Shown here one piece after another: positions 4,768-33,998 of a stretch of DNA of 64,000 bases (the stretch's first letter is position 1; each line of letters starts with the position of its first letter). Origin of the DNA: Chryseolinea serpens (GTDB lineage: Bacteria; Bacteroidota; Bacteroidia; Cytophagales; Cyclobacteriaceae); contig NZ_FQWQ01000002.1 in the NCBI RefSeq assembly GCF_900129725.1, positions 1,240,001 through 1,304,000 of the forward strand, given 5' to 3'. The notes beneath the pieces were generated by a model that was given only the letters and a program-made list of their open reading frames with translations, was not told where the DNA came from and did not search any database. A program made the translations under genes and the position numbers.

Positions 4768-4782
4768 GTATGCGAAAGACCA

Positions 4783-5118
4783 TCATGAGAGCTTGCTTGT
4801 TGCAAACCCGGGAAACTGTTTCCACAACGCTATCCGGAAATCGCGTGCTGCGCTAAGCGTCTTGCGTCCGTAGGCGGTGATCGTGTAGATGCGTTTTCGC
4901 CGCCCGCCTCTTTCCGCCGTGGATTCTCCCATCTGCGAGGTCAGGAATCCTTTCTCCTCCAAGCGCGTCAGCGTCGAATGCACAGCACCGATCGACACCG
5001 GTCGCCCGGCTTGTGACTCAAATTCCTCGGCAATGTTGAACGCATAGGCCTCCTCTCCCAGAATGCCTACCAACAGCAGGATAACCTCTTCAAATTCTCC
5101 CAATCGTGTCTCTATCAT
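4783..5118 (-). CDS. PadR family transcriptional regulator
   Basis: A 111-residue winged-helix protein. It shows the PadR pattern: LGEFEEVILLLVGILGEEAYAF at the start, a recognition region around GAVHSTLTRLEEKGFL (residues 44-59) and the wing with ERGGRRKRIYTIT (69-81). PadR proteins usually repress neighbouring efflux or stress genes and release DNA on binding a small ligand. It is first in an apparent operon with the two downstream permeases (15 bp to the next start), and a 13-bp imperfect inverted repeat lies just upstream. A second PadR (59591-59920) has the same beginning (LGEFEE, then LLLVG or LLMVG) and the same gene order downstream. Confidence 0.93.
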   Translation of the reverse strand: MIETRLGEFEEVILLLVGILGEEAYAFNIAEEFESQAGRPVSIGAVHSTLTRLEEKGFLTSQMGESTAERGGRRKRIYTITAYGRKTLSAARDFRIALWKQFPGFATSKLS

Positions 5119-5128
5119 CTTTTATGTT

Positions 5129-5181
5129 ACTAGATTGTAGAGGAAATATAGCCATTTTTTCAATTTGTTCTACATTTTAGT
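5129..5181 (-). promoter_or_regulatory. Candidate PadR operator (imperfect inverted repeat)
   Basis: The arms ACTAGATTGTAGA (5129-5141) and TCTACATTTTAGT (5169-5181) are reverse complements at 10 of 13 positions, with a 27-bp spacer. The element starts 11 bp upstream of the PadR start codon, where an autorepressor would be expected to bind. The symmetry is seen directly; the operator role is inferred. Confidence 0.35.
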
Positions 5182-5272
5182 ATAAAATCATCCAAAAAAA
5201 TGCTTTCCAAAAAAGGAAAACAGATTCAGAACACCTTAAATACCAATCCCCTTTAAAAAGGATACAAAAAAA

Positions 5273-5848
5273 TTATTTTTTCTTTTTTACCCCCCCTTTG
5301 GGTTTCCCCCCTGATGCCCGACCCCTGCCCCCCATTTTCTGAATTCCGGCTCCCGGCTCCTGGCTTCTGGCTCCTAACTCAGCCTTCTTATACCGCTCAT
5401 AATACCCCTCCTCTTCCAACGCCGCCTCCGCATCCTCCACCGCTTTCAGCAGGCTGCTTCCATTATTATAGACTTGTTTTGATGCCAAGCGCATAACATG
5501 CCAAAGCGGCTCCAACTCCTCTACCATGTCCAGGGCTTTTTGTGTGAGGTGAAGCATGCGCTTTCTCCCATCGTCTTTGCCCGGCACGGATTTGACAAGC
5601 TTCTTTTTTTCCATCTCTTTGACCAGTGCGATCACGGAGGGGTGGGTATAGCCAATCTCATTGGCCAGTTCCAGTACGCTGAGGGGCGATCGTTTCGACA
5701 GGACATACAATACGGGGAACCACTTGGATTCAAAGTCGATGCCGTGCTCGTTGTAGATGCGGGTCACGTCTTTGCGCATACCTTCGCTGAGGCGCATCAG
5801 GCGCGTGGACAAGGCGAGTTCGCCGAGTTCGTTGATGAGGTTGCTCAT
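5273..5848 (-). CDS. MarR family transcriptional regulator with repeat-derived C-terminal tail
   Basis: I chose the start at 5848 (MSNLINELGELALSTRLM) because it overlaps the upstream GNAT stop in an ATGA; the frame is open further up to 5914, but that region is acetyltransferase coding sequence. The protein has 191 residues. The winged helix is visible: LSVLELANEIGYTHPSVIALVKEMEKKKLV as the HTH and DGRKRMLHLT as the wing. MarR proteins are ligand-responsive repressors of efflux and stress genes. The last ~33 residues (from about ELGARSQEPGAG to the poly-lysine end) are outside the usual fold and are largely encoded by a 7-bp tandem repeat at 5337-5378, then by a Gly/Lys-rich low-complexity end. 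Confidence 0.88.
   Translation of the reverse strand: MSNLINELGELALSTRLMRLSEGMRKDVTRIYNEHGIDFESKWFPVLYVLSKRSPLSVLELANEIGYTHPSVIALVKEMEKKKLVKSVPGKDDGRKRMLHLTQKALDMVEELEPLWHVMRLASKQVYNNGSSLLKAVEDAEAALEEEGYYERYKKAELGARSQEPGAGIQKMGGRGRASGGKPKGGVKKKK
5337..5378 (-). repeat. Heptanucleotide tandem repeat (6 units) inside the MarR gene
   Basis: Six consecutive 7-bp units on the plus strand: TTCTGAA, TTCCGGC, TCCCGGC, TCCTGGC, TTCTGGC, TCCTAAC. Read on the minus strand they fit the NYCAGNA-type consensus seen at 8434-8510, 35989-36023 and 61952-61975, with some CAG positions drifted to CGG or TAG. Because 7 is not a multiple of 3, each unit gained or lost would shift the reading frame of the MarR C terminus. 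Confidence 0.8.
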
Positions 5849-8575: not shown

Positions 8576-10720
8576 ATGAAACTTCAGAAACTTTATCTTA
8601 TCGCTTGCATCACAGGATTTGTTATGGCATGTTCGCAAAAGAAAGAAGCTGCGATCCACATGACTTATCCCGAAACAAAAAAGACGGACACCGTCGATAA
8701 CTACTTTGGCGAATCCGTGAGCGATCCCTATCGCTGGCTGGAAGACGACACGGCGCAAGCGACCGCCGATTGGGTAAAGGATCAAAATGAAATCACGTTT
8801 GGATACCTTGAAAAAATCCCCTATCGTGAGACCATCAAGGAACGTCTGAAAGAACTTTATAATTACGAACGCCTCGGCGCCCCTTCGCGGGAGGGGGATT
8901 ATTATTATTTCTACAAGAACGCGGGCCTTCAAAATCAAAGCGTGCTCTACCGGAAGGCCGAAGAGCATGGGACACCCGAGGTATTTCTGGACCCGAACAC
9001 GTTTTCGCACGATGGCACCACCTCGCTTGCGGGATTGTCGTTCACGAAAGATGGAAGCCTGGCGGCCTACCTGTTGTCGGAAGGTGGTTCGGACTGGCGC
9101 AAGGCGATCGTGATCCGCACGAAAGACAAATCGGTGGTGGAAGATACTTTGGTGGATCTGAAGTTTACCGGCATCTCCTGGAAAGGAAATGAAGGTTTCT
9201 ACTATAGCAGCTATGACAAACCGGTGGGCAGTGAAATGTCATCGAAGACGCAGCACCATAAATTATTCTATCACAAGCTCGGCACGCCACAAAGCGAGGA
9301 TGTGCTGATCTTTGGCGGCGAGAAAACACCGCGCCGATATATTTTCGCGGGTCTCACGGAAGACGAACGCTTCCTCGTCGTGAACGCGGCCAACAGCACC
9401 ACGGGCAACGAATTATATGTGCAGGACCTGCACGATCCCCACGGCAAACTGGTGGCCCTGGCCGACAACTTCGACAATAATCACACCGTGGTGGACAACG
9501 ACGGCGCGCGCCTCATCCTCCGCACCAATTTGAAGGCACCCAACAACCGCGTAGTGGAAGTGGACTTTGCCCATCCTACGTCAGCCCATTGGAAGGACAT
9601 CATTCCGGAAACTGAAAATGTTATACAGGGCGTCAGCATCGCCGGCAAAAAACTTTTTGTCAATTATCTGAAAGATGCCAGCACACTCATCCGGCAATTC
9701 GACTACCACGGCAAACCCGGGCGCGACGTTGTACTGCCGGGCATCGGCACGGCCAGCGGCTTCGATGGAAAAATAAAAGACAGCGATGTGTATTATACGT
9801 TCACATCCTTTACCTACCCGCCCACGATCTTCAAATTCAATATCGCTTCCGGTACGTCGACGGTATACGAAAGACCCAAAGTAGAATTTGACCCGGACGG
9901 GTATGAAACCAAGCAGATCTTTTACACCAGCAAAGACGGGACGAAAGTGCCCATGTTTATTGTACACAAGAAAGGATTGGTATTGAACGGCAAGAATCCC
10001 ACCCTTTTGTATGGATACGGCGGGTTCGACGTGAGCCTTACGCCAAACTTCAATACGTCGCGTATCGTCTGGCTGGAGAATGGCGGTGTGTTCGCCCAAC
10101 CCAATCTAAGGGGTGGCGGCGAATATGGAGAGAAATGGCACCTCGCCGGCACCAAGCAAAAAAAACAAAATGTATTTGACGACTTCATTGCAGCCGCCGA
10201 ATACCTCTTCCAACAAAATTATACCTCCAGTAACTATCTCGCGCTTTCCGGCGGATCGAACGGCGGCTTGCTCGTGGGCGCCACCATGACACAGCGACCC
10301 GACCTGGCCAAGGTTGCCCTTCCCGATGTGGGCGTGATGGATATGCTGCGTTACCATGTGTTTACGGCTGGCGCCGGATGGGCCTATGACTATGGCACAG
10401 CGCAGGACTCGAAAGAGATGTTCGAATACCTGAAACGCTATTCGCCGGTCCACGCCCTGAAGACGGGCACCGCATACCCGGCAACACTGGTGACAACGGC
10501 CGACCACGATGACCGCGTAGTGCCCGCGCATTCGTTCAAGTTTGCCGCTACCCTCCAGGCCTCGCAGGCCGGATCCAATCCCGTGTTGATCCGCGTGAAC
10601 ACCAAATCAGGACACGGCGCCTCCAATCTCTCGAAAGCCATTGAGACGGTTGCCGATCAATACACGTTTGCCTGGTACAATATGGGCGTTGTTCCTGCGG
10701 TGGAAAAAAAGCGGATGTAG
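8576..10720 (+). CDS. Prolyl oligopeptidase family serine peptidase (S9A), lipoprotein
   Basis: A 714-residue protein from the ATG at 8576; the frame extends to 8543, but MKLQKLYLIACITGFVMAC is a complete lipoprotein signal ending at the lipobox Cys. An S9 N-terminal beta-propeller occupies about residues 40-440 (DPYRWLEDDTAQATADWVKDQN at its start), followed by the alpha/beta hydrolase domain with YGYGGFDVSLTPNF. The catalytic triad can be assigned: Ser561 in SGGSNGG, Asp646 in HDDRVVPAHS and His680 in SGHGAS. It cleaves short peptides after proline. It is probably anchored in the membrane and active in the periplasm or at the surface. It converges on the deiodinase-like gene with 3 bp between stops. 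Confidence 0.95.
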   Translation: MKLQKLYLIACITGFVMACSQKKEAAIHMTYPETKKTDTVDNYFGESVSDPYRWLEDDTAQATADWVKDQNEITFGYLEKIPYRETIKERLKELYNYERLGAPSREGDYYYFYKNAGLQNQSVLYRKAEEHGTPEVFLDPNTFSHDGTTSLAGLSFTKDGSLAAYLLSEGGSDWRKAIVIRTKDKSVVEDTLVDLKFTGISWKGNEGFYYSSYDKPVGSEMSSKTQHHKLFYHKLGTPQSEDVLIFGGEKTPRRYIFAGLTEDERFLVVNAANSTTGNELYVQDLHDPHGKLVALADNFDNNHTVVDNDGARLILRTNLKAPNNRVVEVDFAHPTSAHWKDIIPETENVIQGVSIAGKKLFVNYLKDASTLIRQFDYHGKPGRDVVLPGIGTASGFDGKIKDSDVYYTFTSFTYPPTIFKFNIASGTSTVYERPKVEFDPDGYETKQIFYTSKDGTKVPMFIVHKKGLVLNGKNPTLLYGYGGFDVSLTPNFNTSRIVWLENGGVFAQPNLRGGGEYGEKWHLAGTKQKKQNVFDDFIAAAEYLFQQNYTSSNYLALSGGSNGGLLVGATMTQRPDLAKVALPDVGVMDMLRYHVFTAGAGWAYDYGTAQDSKEMFEYLKRYSPVHALKTGTAYPATLVTTADHDDRVVPAHSFKFAATLQASQAGSNPVLIRVNTKSGHGASNLSKAIETVADQYTFAWYNMGVVPAVEKKRM

Positions 10721-10723
10721 TCT

Positions 10724-11512
10724 CTACTCGGTGATGTGCCGGATCTTTTCTTCCAGCTTTTTTTCATCGTACCACGTCTGCCGGTATTCCACTACGCCAT
10801 CGGCATCGATGATGTAGCACATGTTGGGAGCCTGACCAAATTCCATCCAGTATTCATTGTCGGGTTTGTCGATCACGACCGGCACGTGGATCTGATTTTC
10901 CTTTATCCAGGTTTTCGATAGTTCAACGCGCTCTCCGTACGTCTTTGGCTGCTGCGCCGAGACGCTGTCGCGAATGTTGTTGGGGGGTATCCAGATGTCG
11001 CTGTCCGGCGAGTAGGGACTCATCATATCATTGGGATGGGCGTCGATCGTGTAGACCATGACCACTTCCATATTCTTACCAATGCGTTCACTGAGCGCGT
11101 TGATGGAAGGAAGATTTCCCCGGCTGATGTCGCACGTATAGCTACCGTTGATGATCATGACCGGCTTTCCCTTTTGGAGTTCGGCATAGAGGTGAAAAGG
11201 TTGCCCTTCCCCGGAATACAACGTGATGTCGGGCACCGTGTCGCCGGGGTGGTAGCCCAACATTTCCCATGCGCCTTCCGCTCCTTGCGAAATAGGAAGC
11301 TTGGTCTTTGCCCCATCCGAGGGGATGCGCTCGTCGCCGCCCATGCAGGAAGAGACCACCACGCATACGACATAGCCCCACGTTCTGATCTTTTTCCGGA
11401 TGCGTTTGTTTCTGGTTTGGATGAGGTCGGTCGAAAAAAGGTCGGTTTGGGATGGTCGGAACACGGGTGGATATGGGTTGGTCCACGAATGTGGAAAATA
11501 CGATAGGGCCAC
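10724..11512 (-). CDS. Iodothyronine deiodinase-like thioredoxin-fold lipoprotein
   Basis: A 262-residue protein as drawn. The start is uncertain: the only ATG in reach is at 11512, which places a lipoprotein-like segment (IRTWGYVVCVVVSSC, Cys56) unusually far from the N terminus. The C-terminal ~180 residues follow the deiodinase family: GKPVMIINGSYTCDISRGNL puts Cys127 where animal enzymes carry selenocysteine (GSCTU), VVMVYTIDAHPND matches the conserved VYIxEAHxxD with His159, and later VPVVIDKPDNEYWMEFG and MCYIIDADGVVEYRQTWYD complete the domain. Bacterial members have Cys instead of Sec and unknown substrates; reductive dehalogenation or thiol-redox repair are possible. Confidence 0.72.
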   Translation of the reverse strand: MALSYFPHSWTNPYPPVFRPSQTDLFSTDLIQTRNKRIRKKIRTWGYVVCVVVSSCMGGDERIPSDGAKTKLPISQGAEGAWEMLGYHPGDTVPDITLYSGEGQPFHLYAELQKGKPVMIINGSYTCDISRGNLPSINALSERIGKNMEVVMVYTIDAHPNDMMSPYSPDSDIWIPPNNIRDSVSAQQPKTYGERVELSKTWIKENQIHVPVVIDKPDNEYWMEFGQAPNMCYIIDADGVVEYRQTWYDEKKLEEKIRHITE

Positions 11513-23146: not shown

Positions 23147-23758
23147 ATGAAAAAACTACCGGCCCTCCTCCTTTCGGTTTGTGTATCGACCTTCGTTTAC
23201 GCACAGGACCCTTCCTCCAAAGAAAGTGGCGTGGCTTCTGAAAAGCCGCTTGCGTTTGAGCTTCCAAAACCAATGGAGCCGCTCTACATTGTCAACGACT
23301 CGGCTGTCATCACCCCTGAGCAGTTTAAGGCTATCAACCCTGCGCAGATCCAATCCGTCGCGGTCTGGCGCTATGCCAGTGATGTCGTTGGGCACCATGA
23401 CGGAACACAGGCCGGAGTCATTCTGATCTATCTGAAAGGCTATAGGTCATCTACCGCTAAAGCTGGTAGCCTGGCTTCCAACAAGCCGTTGCCGTTTGAG
23501 CTTCCAAAAAAGACGGAGCCTCTCTATATCGTCGTAGAGCCTCGCAATATCCATGGCTCGGAGGTCATCACCGCCGATCTATTGAAGGCCATCAACCCCC
23601 GCCATATCCAATCTGTTGAAGTTCGACACTTTGAAAACAATATCGTTGGGTCACAAAATGACGTTGCGCACCGCGGCGTTGTTCTTATTTATCTGACGGA
23701 TCGCATGTCGTTTGCTGAAGAATTTTCGATTCACAAAAAAAATTCTGTAAAAAACTAA
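23147..23758 (+). CDS. Secreted protein with two TonB-plug-like repeats
   Basis: A 203-residue protein with a signal peptide (PALLLSVCVSTFVYAQ). It contains two copies of a ~75-residue unit: KPLAFELPKPMEPLYIV with FKAINPAQIQSVAVWRY and GVILIYLKG, then KPLPFELPKKTEPLYIV with LKAINPRHIQSVEVRHF and GVVLIYLTD. The pattern PLYIVxxxxI...INPxxIQSVxV...GVxLIYL resembles the core of TonB-dependent receptor plug domains (PLYVVDG...IESIEVLK...GVIxITTK), here without any barrel. Function unknown; it may bind a periplasmic partner of TonB systems or have been recruited as a small adaptor. Confidence 0.8.
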   Translation: MKKLPALLLSVCVSTFVYAQDPSSKESGVASEKPLAFELPKPMEPLYIVNDSAVITPEQFKAINPAQIQSVAVWRYASDVVGHHDGTQAGVILIYLKGYRSSTAKAGSLASNKPLPFELPKKTEPLYIVVEPRNIHGSEVITADLLKAINPRHIQSVEVRHFENNIVGSQNDVAHRGVVLIYLTDRMSFAEEFSIHKKNSVKN

Positions 23759-23839: not shown

Positions 23840-24601
23840 ATGCCCAAACTTATTTCTGCTGGCCGCCTGATGTTTGCCATTGGCATGCTCGGCCTTTCGT
23901 TCATTTGCATTCTTGCCCAGGATTTTATCTTCGGTCGTCCGCCGGCCTTGCCTGCCGAACTCGCCGGCATGGCCTCCATGTTGGGTTATGTGGGGGCGGG
24001 CGTTGTTGCACTTTCGGCACTCGCGATCCTTGTTAATCATAAATACGCTGCGTATGGCGCGCTCGTGATCGGGCTGTTGATCCTGATCTCCGCCCTGTTT
24101 CGCCAGGTACCCAGCTTTGCAAGTCAATGGCTTAATGGATTGAAGTCGTTTTTCATGGTAGGTGGCACGATCGTCATCGCCGCCACGTATACCGGTGAAC
24201 AGCGTGCGCTCAAAACGTTGAATGAAAAAAACTGGGACGTGCTGATTTATATCGGCTGTGTTTTCCTGGCTTCATTCTTTATTGCCGGTGGCTATTCGCA
24301 TTTTTTGTATGCCGAATTCGTGATCGGCTTCATTCCGGCCTATATTCCCTTTCACGCATTCTTCACCTACTTCTGCGCCATCTGTCTTTTTGCGGGTGGA
24401 ATTGGGATACTCATTCCGGGTACGCGGAGATTGGCTGCGCTGCTATCGGGCATCATGGTTTTTGGCTGGTTCCTGCTGTTGCACGTTCCCCGTTTCTTCG
24501 CCAACATGAACGACCCCAGTGATCGCATGGGATTGTGTGAGTCGTTTGCTTTTGCCGGATTCTTCTTTGCGCTCGCCGGATTATCAGAGAAAAAGAAATA
24601 A
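23840..24601 (+). CDS. DoxX-like integral membrane protein
   Basis: A 253-residue protein (ATG at 23840, MPKLISAGRLMFAIGMLGLS) with about eight membrane segments that appear to form two similar halves, each about 120 residues. The start (ISAGRLMFAIGMLGLSFICILAQDF) and the second half (FLASFFIAGGYSHFLYAEFVIGFIPAYIPFHAFFTYF) recall DoxX/DoxD-type quinone-linked or stress membrane proteins of Bacteroidota; identification is by general pattern only. A long imperfect inverted repeat follows the stop. Confidence 0.7.
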   Translation: MPKLISAGRLMFAIGMLGLSFICILAQDFIFGRPPALPAELAGMASMLGYVGAGVVALSALAILVNHKYAAYGALVIGLLILISALFRQVPSFASQWLNGLKSFFMVGGTIVIAATYTGEQRALKTLNEKNWDVLIYIGCVFLASFFIAGGYSHFLYAEFVIGFIPAYIPFHAFFTYFCAICLFAGGIGILIPGTRRLAALLSGIMVFGWFLLLHVPRFFANMNDPSDRMGLCESFAFAGFFFALAGLSEKKK

Positions 24602-24669
24602 GCCAACCCTTGCCTTAGCACTGTCCTTCTTAAAACCCAAGCTAAAACGACAGTGCAAGGCTGGGTTGC
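24602..24669. terminator. Long imperfect inverted repeat between convergent genes
   Basis: The left arm 24602-24625 (beginning GCCAACCC and ending AGCACTGTC) pairs with the right arm 24649-24669 (beginning GACAGTGC and ending GGGTTGC), with a few bulges and a loop of about 23 nt. It fills the gap between the DoxX-like gene and the convergent LRR gene and probably acts as a terminator in both directions, although it lacks a clean T tract. Confidence 0.5.
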
Positions 24670-27237
24670 TCACCGGTAATAGACCACATTACAATCGGGG
24701 TGAGCTTGTTTGAAATTCTCGATCGCGCGACTGGACACTTTCGTGTTGTAGCACTTCAGCGTTTTTAAAGGAAGATTGTCCACCGGATCGAGTTTGCCCA
24801 CATTCGTGTTACTGCAATCCAGCTCGGTCAGGTTCAACAAATTCTTTAGCGGGTCAAGGCGTTTGATCTGTGTGCCTGCGGCGTTGAATGTCTTCAGGTT
24901 TGCCAACATCTCCAGGGGCTTGATCTCGGCGATGGGCGTGTTTGAAATGTCGAGGTCTTCCAGGCTTGTCAACTGGCTCAGCGTCTCGATCTGCTGCAGG
25001 GGACCGTTCGTGATGCGCAGGGACGTCAGCATTTTAAAGTTTGCCAACGGCGCCACGTCGCTGATGCCGGTGCCGGAAAAATGCAATTCTTTCGGACGCA
25101 CAAATTCACTCAAGGCCGTCAGGTCGCTGACGGGTGCATCCTTGATGTGCATTTTTTCGCGTTCCACCAACACGTGAAGGTTTTCGCGCGTCGTGGTGGT
25201 GTCGGTTCCCATCAGGCCCCGGAACACCGTTTTCCATTCGGGTGTAAGCCCTCTCCACCAGCGGTTCAGGTGGATGGTCTTGTACACCATGAGGCAGCGC
25301 GGATTCTTTTCAAAAAATTCCTGCGCAATGATGTCGTGCACCATCGTGTTGTCGGTGTATAATTTTTCCAGGTTGGTCAACCCAAAAAGCGGATCGATCT
25401 TTTCGATCTTGCTTTTATCGGCCATCAATACTTTCAGCTTCGAGAAGTTGCCGATAGGCGAAAGATCCGTCACTTCGGTTTCGCTGATGTCGAGGTAGCG
25501 GACCTCCTTGTGGTCTTGCAACGGAGTAAGGTCTCTTATGCTGGTGTGGGCTGCAATGACAACCTTCAACCTTCTCATTTTCCGAAGCGGCTCCAGGTCG
25601 CGGATCTCGAGGTTGCCACGGAAATTTATAGAGTCCACAACGTCCAACTTGGCAAGTTCTTCCTTGGCCGGGGTTGCGCCGAACTTCATCGTTTTGCTCA
25701 CCACTTCTTTCCAGGCGTCGGGCAGTGCATCCCACCAGGTCTTGAGGTCGTGTGAGTCGAATATGACCAGCACGCGCGGGTGGGCGGCAATAAATGCATC
25801 GGCTGTTTCGCGGCGAACGGCGGCATGGTCGGCGTAGATCTTTTGGAGGTGCGTCAGTTTCTGCAGCGGCTGGAGATCGGTCACCTGCGTGGCATTCAGC
25901 GAAAGCACCACCAGGCCTTCGAGTCCACTCAACGGTGCGATGTTTTGCAACGCCGTGCTGTCGACATCCAAATTCACCAACGTCTTCATGTCTTTTAGTG
26001 GGGACAGGTCTTTCACGGCTGTGCGCGAAAGATCAAGCGTTGTGAGCTTGGTCAGCGGCTGCAAGGCGGTGAGGTCGGCGATCTTTGTGGTCTCGACATT
26101 CAGCGTGATCAATTCCGTGTTGTTTTGCAGGAAGGTAAAATCGGTCACCGGCGTATAGCTCAAATCCAGCTGCTGCAACAGGGGCATTCTTTCCAATACA
26201 CTGATGTCGTCAATGAACGTGTGGCTGGCATTCAGTTTCACCAAACGATTGGAATATTTTAGCGGTGTCAGGTCGTGAACGGCGGTGAAGGAAGCGTCCA
26301 ATTCCTGCAAGTCGGTGAGGGAGCGAATGGGGTTCAGATCGTTGATCGCCGTATGCGACAGGTTCAATTTCTTGAGGTTCGTAAACTCGGTGAGCGGCTC
26401 CAGGTTTTGGATGTAGGTGTTGTTGCTCAGGTCGAGGCGTTCGATGGCCATGATCTTTTTGATGACCGGATACGTGGCACTGTCGGACACATTGCCCGCG
26501 CGCAAAAGAATCTCCTGCCACTCATACGACAAGTCGGTCCACCATTGTTCGATGGCCCCTTTCTCGTCGATCAGGTTGGTGTAGATGCTGACGATGCGGA
26601 GGTCGCGGTCTTGTGGATCATAGTTGATCTCCAGGAACCGGGGCACCGTGTTGTTCACCGGCAGGCCTTCCGAGTTGGTCCCTTTCAGGTTGCGCCGGAG
26701 CGAGACCTTATAAAAAGTTTTCCCATCGGCCATCGTTCCGCTTTTGATGCTTTCGATGACAAACTCAAAATGGACGTCGGTGAAGAAAAAGTCCACGTCT
26801 TTCAGGTAGGCCACCACATCTTTGTTGGTGATGGTTTTGCGTTCCGTGTCGAGGTCGTCTTCCACCTGCACTTTGCCGTCGCGGAAGACCTTCGAGTAGC
26901 TTTCGCGCACAAGAACTTCTTTGTCGCGGGCGGAGGTGCCACTGCTGCCCAGGGTGTTCAGCATGTATTCGAGGAAGGCCACCATGTCGCGCACTTTCTT
27001 TTCGTCATCGGCCGCACTCGTCGGGGCCGCGGCGGTTTCCACAGGTTGGGTTGGGGTGGTCGTTTTTTGCGCTACAGGCTTCGGGGTTTGTTTTTGGGGA
27101 GCCTGTTTTTTAGGGGCTTGCTTTTGAGTAGTCGTTTTCTTTGCGGGCTTTTTTGTTTTCGATTGCTGCGCAAACGCGCCTACCGCCAGCAGGCATAGCA
27201 AAAAAAGAATGGGCCAGCGCGATCTACTTCGTTTCAT
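24670..27237 (-). CDS. Secreted leucine-rich-repeat protein with three WW-EWK modules
   Basis: An 855-residue protein from the ATG at 27237, which overlaps the previous gene by 14 bp. After a signal peptide (ILFLLCLLAVGAFAQ) come a Lys/Thr/Gln/Pro-rich linker (about residues 22-75), a globular domain (about 80-240) and three blocks of internalin-type repeats (LxxLxxLDLSxTxVxDLxPL). Each block is preceded by a short helical module with two Trp and a third downstream (EQWWTDLSYEWQEI, KTWWDALPDAWKEV, NRWWRGLTPEWKTV) and ends with a cap of the form F...HPxxxVVY. The repeats imply protein-protein or glycan contact in the periplasm or at the surface. Last gene of a four-gene operon. Confidence 0.88.
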   Translation of the reverse strand: MKRSRSRWPILFLLCLLAVGAFAQQSKTKKPAKKTTTQKQAPKKQAPQKQTPKPVAQKTTTPTQPVETAAAPTSAADDEKKVRDMVAFLEYMLNTLGSSGTSARDKEVLVRESYSKVFRDGKVQVEDDLDTERKTITNKDVVAYLKDVDFFFTDVHFEFVIESIKSGTMADGKTFYKVSLRRNLKGTNSEGLPVNNTVPRFLEINYDPQDRDLRIVSIYTNLIDEKGAIEQWWTDLSYEWQEILLRAGNVSDSATYPVIKKIMAIERLDLSNNTYIQNLEPLTEFTNLKKLNLSHTAINDLNPIRSLTDLQELDASFTAVHDLTPLKYSNRLVKLNASHTFIDDISVLERMPLLQQLDLSYTPVTDFTFLQNNTELITLNVETTKIADLTALQPLTKLTTLDLSRTAVKDLSPLKDMKTLVNLDVDSTALQNIAPLSGLEGLVVLSLNATQVTDLQPLQKLTHLQKIYADHAAVRRETADAFIAAHPRVLVIFDSHDLKTWWDALPDAWKEVVSKTMKFGATPAKEELAKLDVVDSINFRGNLEIRDLEPLRKMRRLKVVIAAHTSIRDLTPLQDHKEVRYLDISETEVTDLSPIGNFSKLKVLMADKSKIEKIDPLFGLTNLEKLYTDNTMVHDIIAQEFFEKNPRCLMVYKTIHLNRWWRGLTPEWKTVFRGLMGTDTTTTRENLHVLVEREKMHIKDAPVSDLTALSEFVRPKELHFSGTGISDVAPLANFKMLTSLRITNGPLQQIETLSQLTSLEDLDISNTPIAEIKPLEMLANLKTFNAAGTQIKRLDPLKNLLNLTELDCSNTNVGKLDPVDNLPLKTLKCYNTKVSSRAIENFKQAHPDCNVVYYR

Positions 27238-28051
27238 AATACAGGTACTTTCGTAAGGCGTCCATATCGGCAAGGGTATTCAACTTGGTCAGGCTGGAGA
27301 TGAGCCAACCCGTGTTGTAGCCGGGACGGTTAAATTGGGCCAGCTCGAAATACCAGCCGTCGATCTGGAAGAAATGAAATTTCACTTCGTTCACCGTCTT
27401 GAATTTCAAGGTGCCTTTTTTGATCTCATACAAAAAAAGCGAGAGGTGATCGGGCTTGAAACTTTTCGCCGCAAATTGGCTGACGCTGTCGCTGTTGATG
27501 AACGCCTTGCGCAGGTTCATAAAATCCAGCTCATGACTCAGCGGGTGCAGGAACTTACCAACCTTCATCGTGTCGCGTGCAAAGTAGGGCGCAAACATAT
27601 CGGCGTAAACCCGTTGGATCACCCATTTGTAACCGAGGTGGTCTTTTTCCAACGCCATGAACAATGTAATGGGTTGGTCTTTGCCATTCTGGGTGAAGGT
27701 GGTGTGCACTTCCGAAAACCAGTTGCCGCCGTGGAAATCCAGCAGCAGTGATTTATCCAATACATTTTTTGCAAAGTCGGTTTTGACCGCATCCGTCATG
27801 CCCTTGTTGCTGGCGTCGAAGAGGATGCCGAGGTATTTTTTCCGGAGCTTGGTGCTTCTGTATTGTTTGTCGCCCTCGTAGTAGCGGTTTCCCTTCTCGT
27901 CCTCCTCGCCATTGAAGCGGCGGAAGAATTGGTTCACCTGTTTGGAAGAGGCGTAGAGCTTGCTCTCATCCTCCAGGTCCACCATTTGGGCATGGAGCGA
28001 CCGGGAGGATGCGAGGAGCAGTATAAAAAATAAAAGACGGCTTAGCTTCAT
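27224..28051 (-). CDS. Exported protein of unknown function (third gene of LRR operon)
   Basis: A 275-residue protein with a signal peptide (LLFFILLLASSRSLHAQ). It starts inside the stop of the preceding gene (ATGA overlap at 28048-28051) and its own 3' end overlaps the LRR gene. The body is rich in aromatic and charged residues (KQVNQFFRRFNGEEDEKGNRYYEG, WVIQRVYADMFAPYFARDTM) with no catalytic motif I recognise. Internal segments such as FAKNVLDKSLLLDFHGGNWFSEVHTTF and the region YKWVIQRVY have the alternating beta pattern of NTF2/SnoaL-like domains, which is a weak inference. Confidence 0.82.
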   Translation of the reverse strand: MKLSRLLFFILLLASSRSLHAQMVDLEDESKLYASSKQVNQFFRRFNGEEDEKGNRYYEGDKQYRSTKLRKKYLGILFDASNKGMTDAVKTDFAKNVLDKSLLLDFHGGNWFSEVHTTFTQNGKDQPITLFMALEKDHLGYKWVIQRVYADMFAPYFARDTMKVGKFLHPLSHELDFMNLRKAFINSDSVSQFAAKSFKPDHLSLFLYEIKKGTLKFKTVNEVKFHFFQIDGWYFELAQFNRPGYNTGWLISSLTKLNTLADMDALRKYLYYETK

Positions 28052-28632
28052 GCACTCGTTTCAGTCACGCGAATATCGCCCAGCATCACATCCCAGAACT
28101 CGACGGTCCGGCCTGCGATCTGTGTCTTTTTCCGTTCCACGTAGATGGTGATATCTTTCTTGGTTGTGTCCTTGTATTTCAAGCCGTCGTCGGACGTGCC
28201 TTCGAAGCGTTGATACACGGTCACCACACCCACATAGCGGCCGTCGGGCTGGCGTTCGAGGTCGCTGATGTAGTGAATGTCATACCATTGGATGGTCACC
28301 CGGTCGTAGTTGAGGGCCATGAGGCGTTCAAAATATTTACGCACTTTGTAATAGTTCACCTCCTTGCGGTTGAGGGCCGACACGCCCATTTCGCTGCCGG
28401 GTGCAAAAAGTTCTTCGGCGCGGTCCATCACCCGGTTCGCTTCCGAGAAGGCCGTTTTTTTGTTTCCGATGATGCTGATGTATTTGCTGAGATCGCGCAC
28501 TTTTTCCAGGGCCAGCGAGTCGATAGCTTGTTTTCTTTCTTTGCTGATCTCGCCGGTTTGGGCCCATAGCGGGGCCGTGAGGGAAAGACAAAGGAGCAAG
28601 AGTGTGCAATATGTATAGCGGTAAGTAGCCAT
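28048..28632 (-). CDS. Exported protein of unknown function (second gene of LRR operon)
   Basis: A 194-residue protein with a signal peptide (YTYCTLLLLCLSLTAPLWAQ). Residues 40-190 hold a domain common in secreted Bacteroidota proteins: KVRDLSKYISIIGNKKTAFSEANR, then RAEELFAPGS, YYKVRKYFERLMALNYDRVTIQWYDIHYISDLE and YVGVVTVYQRFEGTSDDGLKYKDTTKKDITIYVE. The layout (helices, then a curved sheet that opens with a Tyr-rich strand) suggests an NTF2-like fold. Parts of the same pattern can be followed in the lipoprotein upstream and in the N-terminal domain of the LRR protein, which suggests that the operon grew by duplication. Confidence 0.85.
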   Translation of the reverse strand: MATYRYTYCTLLLLCLSLTAPLWAQTGEISKERKQAIDSLALEKVRDLSKYISIIGNKKTAFSEANRVMDRAEELFAPGSEMGVSALNRKEVNYYKVRKYFERLMALNYDRVTIQWYDIHYISDLERQPDGRYVGVVTVYQRFEGTSDDGLKYKDTTKKDITIYVERKKTQIAGRTVEFWDVMLGDIRVTETSA

Positions 28633-28654
28633 GATTGTTGTATTTAAGGGTTGA

Positions 28655-29194
28655 TCAATTTTTTCTTAACTCCACTTCGGTGATCTTACCGGAGCCGTCG
28701 AACTGCAGGTTGCTGATTTTGTCTGCTTTCTTTTTCTGGTCTTTCAGATAGTTAAGATATTTCTGAATGGTGGTGGGACGATCGTAGTCCTTTTGCCCGT
28801 TCTCTTCGCTGATCACAATGAGGAGCGGCGTGTCGGGCGAGGAGAACAAGCTCAGCGCTTCGCTGATGCTGGCGTTGGCCGAGGTAGGACTGCCGGCGTT
28901 GGAGATGGCGTCAAAATATTTTGACAACCGGGCGGCAGGTGCGCTGGCGGCGGCGTTGGCCTGGCGTTCGCGCTCGCGGGCTTCGGCATCGAGCTTGGCC
29001 TGGGCTTCGGCCTCTTTCCGTCGTTGTTCTTCTTCCTGCTGTTTGCGCAGGGCGGCTTCCTGTTGTTCCATTTTAGCCTTTTCAGCGGCAGCCTGCGCTT
29101 CCATAGCCTTCTTTTTACTTTTACAACTCATGGCGCAGCTCATGACCACCATTAGGATCATGATCAGTCGTGACGAATTTCGAATAGCATTCAT
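28655..29194 (-). CDS. Lipoprotein with coiled coil (first gene of LRR operon)
   Basis: A 179-residue protein. The N terminus MNAIRNSSRLIMILMVVMSC ends in a lipobox, with a second possible acceptor Cys four residues later. Residues 25-85 are a highly charged Ala/Glu/Lys/Gln/Arg coiled coil (EAQAAAEKAKMEQQEAALRK and so on). The C-terminal ~90 residues form a small domain (ARLSKYFDAISNAG, EALSLFSSPDTPLLIVI, TTIQKYLNYLKDQKKKADKISNLQF) that resembles the first half of the domain in the next gene. The coiled coil could hold the domain away from the membrane. 22 bp separate it from the next gene. Confidence 0.83.
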   Translation of the reverse strand: MNAIRNSSRLIMILMVVMSCAMSCKSKKKAMEAQAAAEKAKMEQQEAALRKQQEEEQRRKEAEAQAKLDAEARERERQANAAASAPAARLSKYFDAISNAGSPTSANASISEALSLFSSPDTPLLIVISEENGQKDYDRPTTIQKYLNYLKDQKKKADKISNLQFDGSGKITEVELRKN

Positions 29195-29441: not shown

Positions 29442-30326
29442 TCACCAATCCCATTCCTGTTTAGGCCTGACGGTGCCATTCAATTTGTCGATCTCCCCGC
29501 TGCTATGGGTGTAGTGTTTCCGCGTAGCGATGGTCGCGTCTTTTCTACCGATCAGTGGGGTCATGTCGCCATCTACAATATCCGTCCCTCCCAGGATATA
29601 CACGATATCGAGCTTCGTCAGATACTTCAATGGCTTTAAGGAATTTATTTTCCGGCAGCGATAAGTGCCGAGCTGTTCCAGATTTTTTAATTCCTGAACA
29701 GGCGACAAGTCCTCTATATGCGGGCAGCAATCAATATCAAGTCTGCGCAAGTTCGACACGCGCTCCACGCCGTGCAGCGAATTCAGTTTACGCAAATACC
29801 CGAGCTCCAATCGCTCCAGGGCATCGAGCGATCCGATCCCCTCAAGAGATGTAATACTGGAGCGAATAACGGAAAGCTCCCGAAGCGATCGCAATCCACC
29901 AATGCCCTGCAGATCGTCCATCTTGTATTTCCATACGTGCAAGATCTCCAGTGACTTCAGGCGGTCGATATTTTTGACCTTCTTGCTCCATTCAATTCTG
30001 CATTCCTGCAGCAAGGGGAAATTATCGAAATCAATGACCTGCGCTGGCGCCGTTTGAACCAAAAGCCGCCTGAGGTTCACAAATTTACCCAGGGCCGTGA
30101 TGTCCAGATTTCCGGTTATCGAGATTCCCTCTATGAAATCGTAATGAGACTTTAAAAACGTTATGTCGCGACGGGTCGTGCGCTGGGTATTAAAACTTAA
30201 CTCGACATTTCTTATGTCCAGATCCCGCATCTCCTTCAAGCTGTATTCATTTGGGTTTACCAAATACTCATGACCATGCCACGTTCTAAAAGTGAATCCA
30301 TGTTTATCATAAGTATCCCCATTCAT
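29442..30326 (-). CDS. Leucine-rich-repeat protein without signal peptide
   Basis: 294 residues from the ATG at 30326 (MNGDTYDKHGFTFRTWHG); another ATG lies at 30350. After ~75 N-terminal residues there are about eight irregular LRRs of ~22 residues (for example LRRLLVQTAPAQVIDFDNFPLLQECRI, IGGLRSLRELSVIRSSITSLEGIG, LERLELGYLRKLNSLHGVERVSN). No signal peptide or membrane segment is visible, so it is probably cytoplasmic, unlike the LRR protein of the neighbouring operon. The base composition is more AT-rich than its neighbours. The C terminus after the repeats is short and polar. Role unknown; a protein-binding or immunity-type function is possible. Confidence 0.8.
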   Translation of the reverse strand: MNGDTYDKHGFTFRTWHGHEYLVNPNEYSLKEMRDLDIRNVELSFNTQRTTRRDITFLKSHYDFIEGISITGNLDITALGKFVNLRRLLVQTAPAQVIDFDNFPLLQECRIEWSKKVKNIDRLKSLEILHVWKYKMDDLQGIGGLRSLRELSVIRSSITSLEGIGSLDALERLELGYLRKLNSLHGVERVSNLRRLDIDCCPHIEDLSPVQELKNLEQLGTYRCRKINSLKPLKYLTKLDIVYILGGTDIVDGDMTPLIGRKDATIATRKHYTHSSGEIDKLNGTVRPKQEWDW

Positions 30327-30466
30327 ACGTTCCGAAAATAGACGATGCACGCCATCGTGAGTTGCAATTTTCTACATGCCAAGGGTCGATTTCTCCCCGC
30401 TGCAACATTACCAATTAACATCACAATAACAAACTTCAGCAAACCGTAACGGACTGGTAATACGGA

Positions 30467-30534: not shown

Positions 30535-32037
30535 ATGACCAAACTCATTACCAAAATCCTCTGCATGCTGGTAGTAGCATCCTTCACCCTGACGGCCTGC
30601 AAGGGTCCCGAAGGAGACGTGGGCCCCGCCGGCACGAACGGCACCAAAGGCGACAAGGGTGACAAAGGCGACACCGGTGACGACGGTGAAAACGCCAACG
30701 AGGTTGTCCTGGCAAACCACTCGACCACCACCACCTTCCTGAAAAAATTCCCTGGCTACGAAAGCGTTGAAGCATTCTCGCTGATTGGCAGCGCCGACTA
30801 TTTACCCGAATCGCCCGCCTATGTATTTGGTGGTGCAGCCGACGGAACCGGCGTGTTGAAAACCGCTGATGGCTTTGTGATGGTTGTTAACAACGAAGAC
30901 AATATTGCCGTATCGCGGATCACGCTCGACAAGACCTTCCGTCCTGTGAAAGGCGAATACATTCTCAACTCCGACGGTGGTATGGCACGTCTTTGCTCGG
31001 CCACGCTGGCCACTCCCGAAGAACACGGCTTTGGCCCGGTCTTCCTCACGTGCAGTGAAAACGCCAGCGCACAGATCCACGGACTGGATCCCCTGGTGGT
31101 AGTGACCGACCAGGTGAAGACCACGCCCAAATTCCTTCCCGCCCTCGGACGCTGGTACGCAGAAAACGCGGTGCCCCTCCCCAAAACAGCCTACACCGGC
31201 AAAACGGTGATCATCATTGGCGACGACGACTCGGGCACGTATGGCGGACAAGTAGCGATGTATGTATCGTCGACGGTAGGCGACCTGGAGAACGGCAGCG
31301 TCTACGTGATGCGCACGGTCGATCAGAACCCCCGCGAAATGGACCTGGTGGTAGACACTGAAGTGAGTGTTGAATTCGTGAAGATCGACAACCAAAAAGA
31401 CCTCACCGGCGAAGCTACCAACCAGGCAGCTACTGCCTTGAAAGCATTGGCTTTTGGCCGCGTGGAAGACATCGACTATCGCAAAGATGGCGTGGGTCGT
31501 GAAGTTTATTTCAATGTAACGGGCCAACCCGGCAATGCCGACCGCACGAAATACGGCCGCACCTACAAACTTGTCCTCGATGCCACCGATCCGCTGAAAG
31601 GCAAACTCAAGCTGGTACTCGACGGCGACAACCGCGACGGCAAAGCCGGTACGTATGAAAGCCCTGACAACATCATGGTAACCGAGAACTACGCTTACAT
31701 CACCGAAGATCCCAACGGTTATGCCGACTTCGATCACGATGCTTACCTGTACCAGTACAACCTCACCACCGGCTCGCTGAGAAAGGTATTCGAACTCGAC
31801 CACTTCCGTGGCAACACAGAGGCCGAAGCCATCTACGGGGTTGCCGCCATCGGTGGCTGGGAATACGGTGCCATGGTCGACATCTCCGACATCGTGGGCA
31901 TCCCTAACACGTTCACACTGAACATTCAGGTGCATAGCTGGAAGTCGCCGCAGTTTAAAAATGCTGACGGTGGAACGCTGGCCACAAACTTTGAAGAAGG
32001 CAGCCAGATCGTTGTCATTCACGGCTTGCCGCGCTAG
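30535..32037 (+). CDS. PhoX/DUF839-like lipoprotein with collagen-like segment
   Basis: A 500-residue lipoprotein (LVVASFTLTAC lipobox, Cys22). Residues 24-53 are ten Gly-X-Y triplets (GPEGDVGPAGTNGTKGDKGD and on), a collagen-like stalk. The rest reads as a beta-propeller with PhoX/DUF839 features: GGMARLCSATLATPEE, GPVFLTCSENAS, SPDNIMVTENYAYITEDPNGY and the acidic FDHDAYLYQYNLTTG. PhoX enzymes are Ca/Fe-dependent alkaline phosphatases; whether the metal ligands are all kept here cannot be judged by eye. A strong terminator follows, then the peroxidase gene. Confidence 0.68.
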   Translation: MTKLITKILCMLVVASFTLTACKGPEGDVGPAGTNGTKGDKGDKGDTGDDGENANEVVLANHSTTTTFLKKFPGYESVEAFSLIGSADYLPESPAYVFGGAADGTGVLKTADGFVMVVNNEDNIAVSRITLDKTFRPVKGEYILNSDGGMARLCSATLATPEEHGFGPVFLTCSENASAQIHGLDPLVVVTDQVKTTPKFLPALGRWYAENAVPLPKTAYTGKTVIIIGDDDSGTYGGQVAMYVSSTVGDLENGSVYVMRTVDQNPREMDLVVDTEVSVEFVKIDNQKDLTGEATNQAATALKALAFGRVEDIDYRKDGVGREVYFNVTGQPGNADRTKYGRTYKLVLDATDPLKGKLKLVLDGDNRDGKAGTYESPDNIMVTENYAYITEDPNGYADFDHDAYLYQYNLTTGSLRKVFELDHFRGNTEAEAIYGVAAIGGWEYGAMVDISDIVGIPNTFTLNIQVHSWKSPQFKNADGGTLATNFEEGSQIVVIHGLPR

Positions 32038-32065
32038 TTCCCTCTCCCATCATCAAGATTCTTTC

Positions 32066-32098
32066 AACTGCCCGGGCGTGTTCCGGGCAGTTTTCATT
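32066..32098 (+). terminator. Rho-independent terminator after the PhoX-like gene
   Basis: A perfect 10-bp stem: AACTGCCCGG (32066-32075) and CCGGGCAGTT (32083-32092) with a 7-nt loop, followed by TTCATTTTTC. It ends about 13-20 bp before the start of the peroxidase gene. Confidence 0.85.
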
Positions 32099-32111
32099 TT
32101 TCTTTATTTCT

Positions 32112-33998
32112 ATGAAGATGCAAACCAGATCAATTTTCACGGGGTTGTCCATGATGTTGTTGCTTGCTGCCTGTACAACCCAGTCGAAAGAGACAACCTC
32201 CGGCCCGTTGGCGGATGTCAACGCTTATTGGCTCGGCCAAACCGATTCCATACAAAGCTCGCTGGATAGTCTGTCTCAAAAGACAGGACGCCACGAAGAG
32301 GCTGCCGTCCTGCAGGATTATTTTGCGCGCGCGCGACGCTATTTCAAACACATTGAGTCGTTGACGCAGTTTTATTTTCCGGAAGAGTATGCGCGCATCA
32401 ACGGCCCGGCATTGCTCCGCATGGAAGAATACGACGACAAGATCATTGTCCCCACGGGTTTCCAGGTGTTGGAAGAAAAAGTGTTCAGTGATTCCCTGGA
32501 TTATGCCACCGTGCAGCACGAAACGAAAGTACTTCAGATCATCATCCGAAACCTGCAAAATACCATCCACTCCAACACGCTCACGGATGCCAACGTCTTT
32601 GAAGGCGCGCGTCTCGAGTTGCTCACCGTCATGGCCATGGGCATATCGGGTTTTGATTCGCCCATCGCCTTTCAGTCAATCGACGAAGCGAAGGCTTCCC
32701 TTGAGGGTGTAGCCGCGCTGACCGATTTCTATGCCAGCCGGTTAGCGGACGAGAGTATAAAGACGGCCTGGCACAACCAACTCCAATCTGCGTATGCCTA
32801 CCTGGACAAGCCCGTTGACTTCAATGCTTTCGACCGTGCAACATTCATTGCAGATCATCTCAATCCGTTGTCAAAATTGTTGTATCAGTATCAACAAGCT
32901 GCACATGTCCCCAACAACACCTTCCTGACGGCGGTGAACCTGGAGAAGTCTACGTTCTTCGAACCCGGTGTATTCAATGTGGATCACTTTGCGCCTACGT
33001 TCAACCGTGGATTGAAACCGGCAGTAGCCGAACTGGGAAAGGTACTTTTCTTCGACCCGGTTTTGTCGGGTAACAATCACCGGGCCTGCGCTTCGTGTCA
33101 TGTGCCCTCCAAGGCATTTACCGATGGCAAGGTGAAGAGCGTTGCGTTTGACTTTCAGGGCGCTGTTGCGCGAAATGCGCCCACGTTGATCAACGCCGGC
33201 TTTCAGCAATCCCAGTTTTGGGATCAGCGCGTGAGTTTCATCGAAGACCAGGTGAACAACGTGATCGCGAACCCGATCGAAATGCATGGCCACATGGAAG
33301 CCTCGGCATTGAAACTCATGAAGAGCGCTGCGTATCGCGCAATGTTCAAAAATGCGTTTGGCCAGGACACCATCACCAAACGGAATATGCAGACGGCGCT
33401 GGCCAGTTATATTCGTTCGCTCACCGGTTTGAATTCGCGGTTTGATCACTACATGCGGGGCAACAAATCGAGCCTCACGCAAAATGAAGTGGATGGTTTT
33501 AATTTGTTTATGGGTAAGGCCAAGTGTGGCACCTGCCATTTTGCGCCGCTGTTCAACGGTACAGTCCCTCCGCTGTATCGCGAAACCGAGTCGGAAGTGC
33601 TGGGGGTACCCGCGCACCCCGACACCATTCATGCAAAAGTCGACAGCGACAAAGGGAAACTCGTTGCCTACAACAGATCCCTGCATACATACGCTTTCAA
33701 AACATCCACCGTGCGCAATGCAGCGCTCACGGCGCCCTACATGCACAACGGCGTGTTCAAAACACTGGAGGAGGTGATCGACTTCTATAATCGCGGTGGT
33801 GGCGCGGGCATCGGCATTGATCTTCCCAACCAAACGTTACCTCCCGATAAACTTTTGCTGACGAAACAGGAACAGGCGCAAATCATCGCCTTCCTGGAAA
33901 GCCTGAACGACAACTCGGCACTCGCCAATGTCCCGACAACCTTGCCGGCTTTCAACGACGCGCGGCTCGACAAGCGGAAAATCGGAGGCGAGTATTGA
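32112..33998 (+). CDS. Di-heme cytochrome c peroxidase (MauG/CcpA-like) with N-terminal helical domain, lipoprotein
   Basis: A 628-residue protein with a lipoprotein signal (LSMMLLLAAC); an ATG at 32118 is an alternative start. Residues ~25-290 are helical and include PTGFQVLEEKVFSDSLDYATVQHE, which recalls the imelysin GxHxxE region but with Gln for His. Residues ~295-620 are the peroxidase: AELGKVLFFDPVLSGNNHRACASCHVPSKAF (high-potential heme, CxxCH), QSQFWDQRV, and GKAKCGTCHFAPLFNG (second heme), then STVRNAALTAPYMHNGVFKTLEEVIDFYNRGGG. It reduces H2O2 or oxidises a partner in the periplasm. The terminator directly upstream means that it needs its own promoter or read-through. Confidence 0.9.
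   Translation: MKMQTRSIFTGLSMMLLLAACTTQSKETTSGPLADVNAYWLGQTDSIQSSLDSLSQKTGRHEEAAVLQDYFARARRYFKHIESLTQFYFPEEYARINGPALLRMEEYDDKIIVPTGFQVLEEKVFSDSLDYATVQHETKVLQIIIRNLQNTIHSNTLTDANVFEGARLELLTVMAMGISGFDSPIAFQSIDEAKASLEGVAALTDFYASRLADESIKTAWHNQLQSAYAYLDKPVDFNAFDRATFIADHLNPLSKLLYQYQQAAHVPNNTFLTAVNLEKSTFFEPGVFNVDHFAPTFNRGLKPAVAELGKVLFFDPVLSGNNHRACASCHVPSKAFTDGKVKSVAFDFQGAVARNAPTLINAGFQQSQFWDQRVSFIEDQVNNVIANPIEMHGHMEASALKLMKSAAYRAMFKNAFGQDTITKRNMQTALASYIRSLTGLNSRFDHYMRGNKSSLTQNEVDGFNLFMGKAKCGTCHFAPLFNGTVPPLYRETESEVLGVPAHPDTIHAKVDSDKGKLVAYNRSLHTYAFKTSTVRNAALTAPYMHNGVFKTLEEVIDFYNRGGGAGIGIDLPNQTLPPDKLLLTKQEQAQIIAFLESLNDNSALANVPTTLPAFNDARLDKRKIGGEY

Follow-up and report, generated by a model that had tools for sequence, protein, structure and literature searches.

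The membrane complex of the T6SS-iii form of the type VI secretion system (T6SS) is defined as TssNQOPR in the available part of PMC10781749. The same text reports a concentration, in Spirosoma, Hymenobacter, and Flavobacterium, of systems without membrane-complex parts, a pattern whose meaning it calls hard to assess; it warns, for TssO and TssQ, that missing parts may reflect divergence, and it states that no complete membrane complex was found without a T6SS. Here we analyze a 64,000-nucleotide stretch of the 8.36-Mb Chryseolinea serpens genome (contig C8, 1240001-1304000; hereafter, the window) that carries, at positions 24670-29194 of the minus strand, a four-gene operon whose products would likewise form a Bacteroidota envelope complex with a lipoprotein and periplasmic parts. 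The genes are kept together in related genomes, and three of their products share a domain by profile comparison. The operon also resembles TssNQOPR in that relatives of gene 2 and of the N-terminal domain (head) of the gene 4 product lie near T6SS-iii genes where TssR is below cut-off. It differs in that the window genome has no TssN, the operon includes an arm of leucine-rich repeats (LRRs), and its proteins show no convincing kinship to TssR-, TssP-, or TssO-like families.

Two other described groups come close to single components. NTF2-like domains are reported, in sources available in part, in VirB8 and in periplasmic Pgp2, where the domain binds peptidoglycan. Gene 2 may resemble this superfamily in its predicted fold, with CaMKII hub, LinA-like, and dehydratase structures leading its list of Foldseek matches, but differs in having no Pfam match at E≤1 and no sequence relative in PDB beyond chance. 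Like class 1 internalins, gene 4 has 22-residue LRRs; unlike them, it has these in three blocks split by WW...W caps, carries a gene-2-related head, lacks an anchor, and reaches 172.5 of 1600 bits on the internalin model. In the open-licence literature searched, which was available in part, we found no description of the operon or of an NTF2-like T6SS-iii part.

The four genes and their shared domain

Four minus-strand open reading frames (ORFs) lie where a first, sequence-only reading had placed them, and the overlaps it described are present: genes 2 and 3 share ATGA at 28048-28051, and genes 3 and 4 share 14 bp at 27224-27237. Genes 1 and 2 are 22 bp apart. Gene 1 (P0001; 28655-29194, minus strand, as for all four) encodes a 179-aa lipoprotein in which a lipobox-like 'MSC' occurs twice, offering Cys 20 or Cys 24; orthologues favor Cys 24, which is probably the lipobox residue and is followed by KSKKK. 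A long, charged coiled coil, recognized by eye at residues ~25-85, leads to a C-terminal domain (residues 85-179; query segment 28658-28942). Gene 2 (P0002; 28048-28632) encodes 194 aa, a signal peptide followed by a predicted NTF2-like domain. Gene 3 (P0003; 27224-28051) encodes 275 aa, a signal peptide followed by two predicted lobes, each with helices and then three strands. Gene 4 (P0004; 24670-27237) encodes 855 aa from its ATG, although the mechanical ORF extends to a TTG at 27273. Its signal peptide is followed by a linker rich in Lys, Thr, Pro, and Gln (residues 24-78), the head (~80-222; query segment 26503-27012, residues 76-245), and 22-residue LRRs in three blocks, each of which begins with a WW...W cap motif (residues 232, 501, and 660). 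The coiled coil and the Lys/Thr/Pro-rich stretch of the LRR protein had both been anticipated, as had exported-type N-termini on all four proteins: judged by reading the residues rather than with a signal-peptide program, gene 1 has its lipobox, and genes 2-4 each begin with a hydrophobic leader that ends in 'AQ'.

The sequence-only reading had further proposed that a common, duplicated domain recurs in the C-terminus of the lipoprotein, in the 194-aa protein, and in the N-terminus of the LRR protein, and profile comparisons with controls support this. With hhalign, the gene 2 family matched the gene 4 head at P=1.2e-7 over 141 columns and the gene 1 C-terminus at P=8.6e-7 over 63 columns. When the gene 2 alignment was enlarged, the values were 6e-7 and 1.9e-5, respectively. 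In controls with this larger alignment, reversed profiles yielded P values of 0.18 (gene 4 head) and 0.26 (gene 1 C-terminus), and the lowest values among 30 column permutations each were 0.055 and 0.047. No direct profile match was seen between the gene 1 C-terminus and the gene 4 head; these are joined in one family because both match the gene 2 family. The likeness of the three domains was compared by sequence profiles, the 194-aa protein being the one among them with a structure model.

Further matches came from a sister family (121 genomes, the family of G445), in which 40 loci represent the surroundings of part of 75 places with gene-2-like sequence. Among these loci, a hidden Markov model (HMM) of the gene 4 head matched 57 proteins in 32 loci, including gene-2-like proteins that reached E 1.3e-11. 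An HMM of the gene 1 C-terminus gave seven matches, all gene-2-like by sequence, with a best E of 6.1e-5. Gene 3 appears to stand outside the domain family, to which it is not detectably related: its comparisons with the other families gave nothing, apart from one lower value, P 0.0011 for gene 2 versus gene 3, that spans ~50 N-terminal residues, signal peptide included.

A model of gene 2, built with 75 aligned sequences, had a predicted local distance difference test score (pLDDT) of 93.2 and a predicted template-modeling score (pTM) of 0.81; by its secondary structure, it comprises long helices and a strongly curved sheet. The top Foldseek rows were CaMKII association domains, LinA, Aln2, and dehydratase structures, with probabilities up to 1.00, and apart from those so named, we take the leading rows to be NTF2-like. 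The modeled fold of gene 2 looks NTF2-like. The gene 3 model (pLDDT 89.5, pTM 0.80, 74 sequences) shows two successive runs of helices plus three strands. Despite the similar runs, the two halves did not match each other by profile (P 0.16), and a Foldseek comparison of gene 3 with solved structures gave a best E of 4.6e-3 and none at E≤0.001.

Library searches of Pfam and NCBIfam assigned no family to gene 2 (none at E≤1) or gene 3, and those for gene 1 returned coiled-coil noise under the cut-offs. Gene 4 matched Pfam LRR_4 at E 2.5e-49 and an internalin A chain in PDB at E 2.7e-51. Profile sequence searches of PDB gave three rows for gene 2, one for gene 3, and none for the gene 4 head, none being better than E 0.13. 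The PADLOC models gave no match at E≤0.01 to five proteins, those of genes 1-4 and of an LRR gene just upstream, and an anti-phage defense system was rejected on this result.

Conservation, surroundings, and cell location

A contig scan with gene 2 yielded 87 stretches matching a pattern, 40 of which encode a relative. Far from being rarely together in related genomes, an outcome that would have counted against the sequence-only reading, genes 1-4 stand in the same order on one strand in 40 of the 40 loci from this single scan, and the full set is present in 47 of 78 genomes of the host's family. Chance clustering of the four genes was considered and rejected. Identity to the 40 orthologues is 66-88% for gene 2, 45-77% for gene 3, 34-68% for gene 1, and 27-70% for gene 4, making gene 2 the slowest-evolving and most conserved member. 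In named records, gene 2 has its closest relatives in Chryseolinea lacunae (88%), Dawidia soli, Chryseosolibacter histidini, and Parachryseolinea silvisoli, which places the host among Cytophagales close to Chryseolinea. Three WW...W caps are found in 35 of the 40 gene 4 orthologues, two in four, and one in the last; where all three are present, their spacing is near-constant, at ~269 and ~159 residues.

The family sample comprised 78 whole genomes from 77 genera. Matches to gene 2, gene 3, and the gene 4 head were found in 48 genomes each, and to gene 1 in 47. The four genes are present or missing jointly, with the exceptions of G069 (81% complete), which has the gene 4 head alone, and G027, where the matches are limited to a divergent gene 2/gene 3 paralogue pair that has other partners. 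The 47 full sets exclude G027. Since the operon is absent from 31 of the 78 genomes, it is not essential in general. By eye, three of the 47 sets are non-contiguous: in G063, the operon is split into two loci (L145 and L146), in G073, the gene 4 head is on another contig, and in G038, the set is in broken pieces. At L115, genes 3 and 4 form a single 1003-aa ORF (2280-5291, plus strand), a fusion that is either natural or a sequencing artefact. G009 has a second copy of the operon (L144), in which gene 3 had no match.

Across the phylum (394 genomes), 17 genomes matched the gene 2 profile and seven the gene 3 profile, own-family relatives included. Six of the 17 (G112, G116, G191, G334, G367, and G375) are covered only over an N-terminal extension, which entered the phylum-wide gene 2 profile via paralogues. 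In three genomes of a distant family (G155, G312, and G412), a gene-2-like ORF overlaps the next one, an exported-looking ORF of 309-311 aa without a match to the gene 3 profile. At these loci (L172, L173, and L174), the pair is preceded by a 481-483-aa gene and followed by genes that, named by eye, are gmhA- and ribH-like.

The flanks, which extended to at most 8 kb and in many cases stopped at a contig end, contained no widely common neighbor, the next commonest family occurring in eight loci, window included. The gene immediately upstream (29442-30350, also minus strand) encodes a 302-aa LRR protein that shows no evident signal peptide and does not belong to the flanking families common to at least four of 40 related loci. 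Directly 3' of the operon, between gene 4 and a convergent gene (23840-24601, plus strand), lies a hairpin at 24598-24675 (-37.8 kcal/mol, z -5.17), with none of 200 shuffles equally stable, which is likely a two-way terminator. A scan for sigma-70-type promoters gave three sites versus 2.8 expected. Farther out are a 203-aa protein (23147-23758, plus strand) that is internally duplicated, with two copies of a ...FELPK..EPLYIV... segment, and two genes for exported proteins (30535-33998, plus strand), the second of which has CxxCH haem motifs and by eye is di-haem peroxidase-like.

The sequence-only reading had placed the complex either in the periplasm or at the surface; the periplasmic option is now favored and the surface is less likely. 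Surface lipoproteins of this phylum carry an acidic motif such as K-(D/E)2 after the lipobox Cys (PMC5080379, available in part). In all 40 gene 1 orthologues, basic or polar residues (KSKKK and similar) follow this Cys, and in all 40 there is no acidic residue at +2 to +5. None of genes 1-4 showed a type IX sorting domain in a Pfam scan at E≤1, and export as cargo of the type IX secretion system was rejected for want of such a C-terminal domain. Because gene 1 lacks the acidic export signal and genes 1-4 lack a type IX domain, the periplasmic face of the outer membrane is favored, and gene 1 would sit in its inner leaflet.

Paralogues near T6SS-iii genes

Divergent loci retain gene-2-like, often gene-4-head-like, and sometimes gene-3-like proteins, the last in 11 of the 40 sister-family loci. 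Five gene-4-head-like proteins scanned with Pfam (from L175, L176, L226, L233, and L239) include none with LRRs and two with tetratricopeptide repeats. At L139-L142, L175, and L177, we observed by eye that gene-2-like paralogues have N-terminal copies of a small domain starting 'D.IY..DG', which also heads adjoining barrel-like proteins.

The window genome (G000) has no match to TssN (PF17555), and because of this we do not regard the window operon as part of a T6SS-iii. Within the family, TssN is above cut-off in three of the 78 genomes: in G025, both copies are 7-9 kb from two paralogue loci; in G071, TssN is ~4 Mb from a paralogue; and G037 has TssN without gene 2. In the sister family, TssN was found in 35 of 121 genomes (45 places) and gene-2-like sequence in 56 (75 places). 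A gene-2-like place lies within 35 kb, our limit for proximity, of 19 of the 45 TssN places, versus ~0.6 expected for random positions in a 6.5-Mb genome. Both occur in 28 genomes (Fisher p 2.3e-6, a rough value). At L226 and L229, a cluster on one strand, except for a small opposite ORF, reads TssE-F-G-N-K, two small membrane-protein-like genes, a barrel-like protein, a gene-2-like protein, an OmpA-domain protein, a lipoprotein-like protein, a gene-4-head-like protein, and an Ig-repeat protein with a weak type IX tail. Here, TssN comes from the PF17555 search and TssK from a profile made in this analysis, and TssE, F, and G are names that we presume from our own reading.

TssR (PF20782) is above cut-off in seven of the 121 genomes, at the loci whose TssN scores rank as the seven best. 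None of the seven has a gene-2-like place within 35 kb, versus 19 of the 38 places without TssR (Fisher p 0.016, again rough), and no HMM of the module, that is, of the gene-2-like and related proteins, matched the seven loci at E≤0.1. TssP-like and TssO-like genes are present in these loci. The other 19 TssN places, out of the 45, lack both TssR and the module nearby, several being on short contigs. TssP as a second replaced part was tried and was not clean, since the TssP-like profile, from a family with a PKD domain, also matches four of the 15 module loci L226-L240. In hhalign comparisons of the module with families from the seven TssR loci (TssR-, TssP-, and TssO-like), nothing was convincing (lowest P 0.0027, over 35 columns), and a Pfam scan of genes 1-4 gave no Tss family at E≤1.

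Other gene families were observed beside the paralogues. A cluster resembling the OmpA-domain protein of L226 occurs in 26 of the 40 sister-family loci, and clusters that by eye look like kinases, FHA proteins, and PP2C proteins occur in seven, six, and five, respectively. At L143, in G027, a Ser/Thr kinase gene (9137-10732, minus strand; Pkinase E 9.6e-30) encodes a C-terminal segment that by eye resembles the gene 1 domain; it adjoins a gene of the PorP/SprF family and gene-2-, gene-3-, and gene-4-head-like genes.

Possible role of the operon and alternatives

We propose, with a probability of about 0.5, that the operon encodes a free-standing, periplasm-facing complex tethered to the outer membrane, composed of NTF2-like subunits and an LRR arm and lacking an injection machine. 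The proposal builds directly on the conservation of the operon, the export-type N-termini as read, the shared domain, and the NTF2-like model of gene 2; co-assembly, location at the inner leaflet of the outer membrane, a binding role for the LRRs, and replacement of TssR are what we infer. Gene 1 would be the outer-membrane lipoprotein, with its coiled coil extending into the periplasm. The gene 1 C-terminal domain, gene 2, and the gene 4 head, as paralogues, would pack together with the two-lobed gene 3 into a hetero-oligomeric scaffold, from which the three-block LRR of gene 4 would reach out as an arm to bind a partner, candidates being an envelope protein, peptidoglycan, or a surface component. 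The ancestral module may have been an envelope docking or anchoring part, a role suggested by the related modules near T6SS-iii genes where no TssR was found; the LRR version would have retained the scaffold without the injection machine, which it either lost or never possessed. A more specific form of this idea, in which the NTF2-like module takes the place of TssR in the sister family (perhaps Spirosomaceae), docking the injection machine to the outer membrane, and the window's family uses the LRR scaffold alone as a contact or envelope device, is tentative and on balance doubtful.

Several observations weigh against these proposals. By profile, gene 3 is not linked to the other three families. 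The gene 2 Foldseek match is weak, with a best E of 1.4e-3 and a query template-modeling score of ~0.25-0.47 over the 50 rows listed, and non-NTF2 folds such as SPLUNC1 are among those rows. The structure models are of single chains of genes 2 and 3, so co-assembly goes beyond them. The T6SS link concerns the paralogues, not the window operon: operon presence is unrelated to TssN (two of 47 genomes with the operon versus one of 31 without) and is not significantly associated with matches to phage-type sheaths (25 of 47 versus 11 of 31, p 0.17). TssN is nearby at only 22 of the 75 gene-2-like places, and the p values for the sister family are rough because related rows are not independent. Two of the seven TssR contigs are short (47 and 33 kb), so that absence of the module is only partly testable there. 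Finally, failing to find TssR does not equal its absence, since weak matches, possibly to divergent forms, exist: the module-linked cluster of G025 encodes a 352-aa protein with a TssR_VWA match at E 0.047, below cut-off; the sister family has four TssR_VWA matches below cut-off, one of them ~9 kb from TssN (G534); and L199, in G071, has weak TssR- and TssP-like hits.

Other explanations fit parts of these data. The LRR protein and NTF2-like subunits might form an envelope sensor that detects a ligand or damage and signals to a transmembrane kinase encoded elsewhere, with the gene 1 domain as signaling partner. The kinase of L143, which has a gene-1-like segment and precedes gene-2-, gene-3-, and gene-4-head-like genes, would suit such a sensor, as would the kinase-, FHA-, and PP2C-looking clusters of the sister family. 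However, that segment is 26% identical to gene 1 and was aligned by choice rather than found by a search, the clusters may belong to the nearby T6SS, and over 40 loci the window-type operon has no recurrent kinase neighbor; we consider a sensor unlikely. Less likely still is an internalin-like adhesin or contact receptor, with the LRR protein displayed outside the cell to bind other cells or polymers. The internalin-type LRRs and the long low-complexity linker of gene 4 argue for it, but gene 4 has neither a type IX sorting domain nor another anchor in the Pfam scan, it scores far under the cut-off of the internalin models, and gene 1 lacks the acidic surface export signal described in the available part of PMC5080379.

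A conserved housekeeping complex for lipoprotein or peptidoglycan maintenance, unrelated to secretion, would agree with the high conservation of gene 2, with the clade-wide presence of the operon, and with the frequent OmpA-domain-like cluster at sister-family loci; it would be hard to square with the absence of the operon from 31 family genomes and seems improbable to us. We give very little credence to the operon contributing in trans, together with genes elsewhere in the genome, to a type VI system or another contractile injection system. The gene-2-like paralogues near T6SS-iii genes and one weak phage-sheath match in the window genome (E 8.0e-6) point that way, but the rarity of TssN in the family and its absence from the window genome largely refute the T6SS-iii version, and sheath matches showed no significant association.

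The envelope complex that we favor is new in its combination of parts and its unassigned families; the folds are common, and no new mechanism is claimed. It is a four-gene envelope system in 47 of 78 family genomes, with two core proteins outside Pfam and NCBIfam, and no match to it was found in the searched libraries. Its paralogues are a testable candidate for TssR's stand-in in some Cytophagales T6SS-iii. If this is true, the operon would be a T6SS-free relative of a membrane-complex part, the kind that, in the available part of PMC10781749, was sought with TssNQOPR and not found. The operon would also be a case in which duplication has placed one periplasmic domain in three proteins that likely belong to a single assembly.

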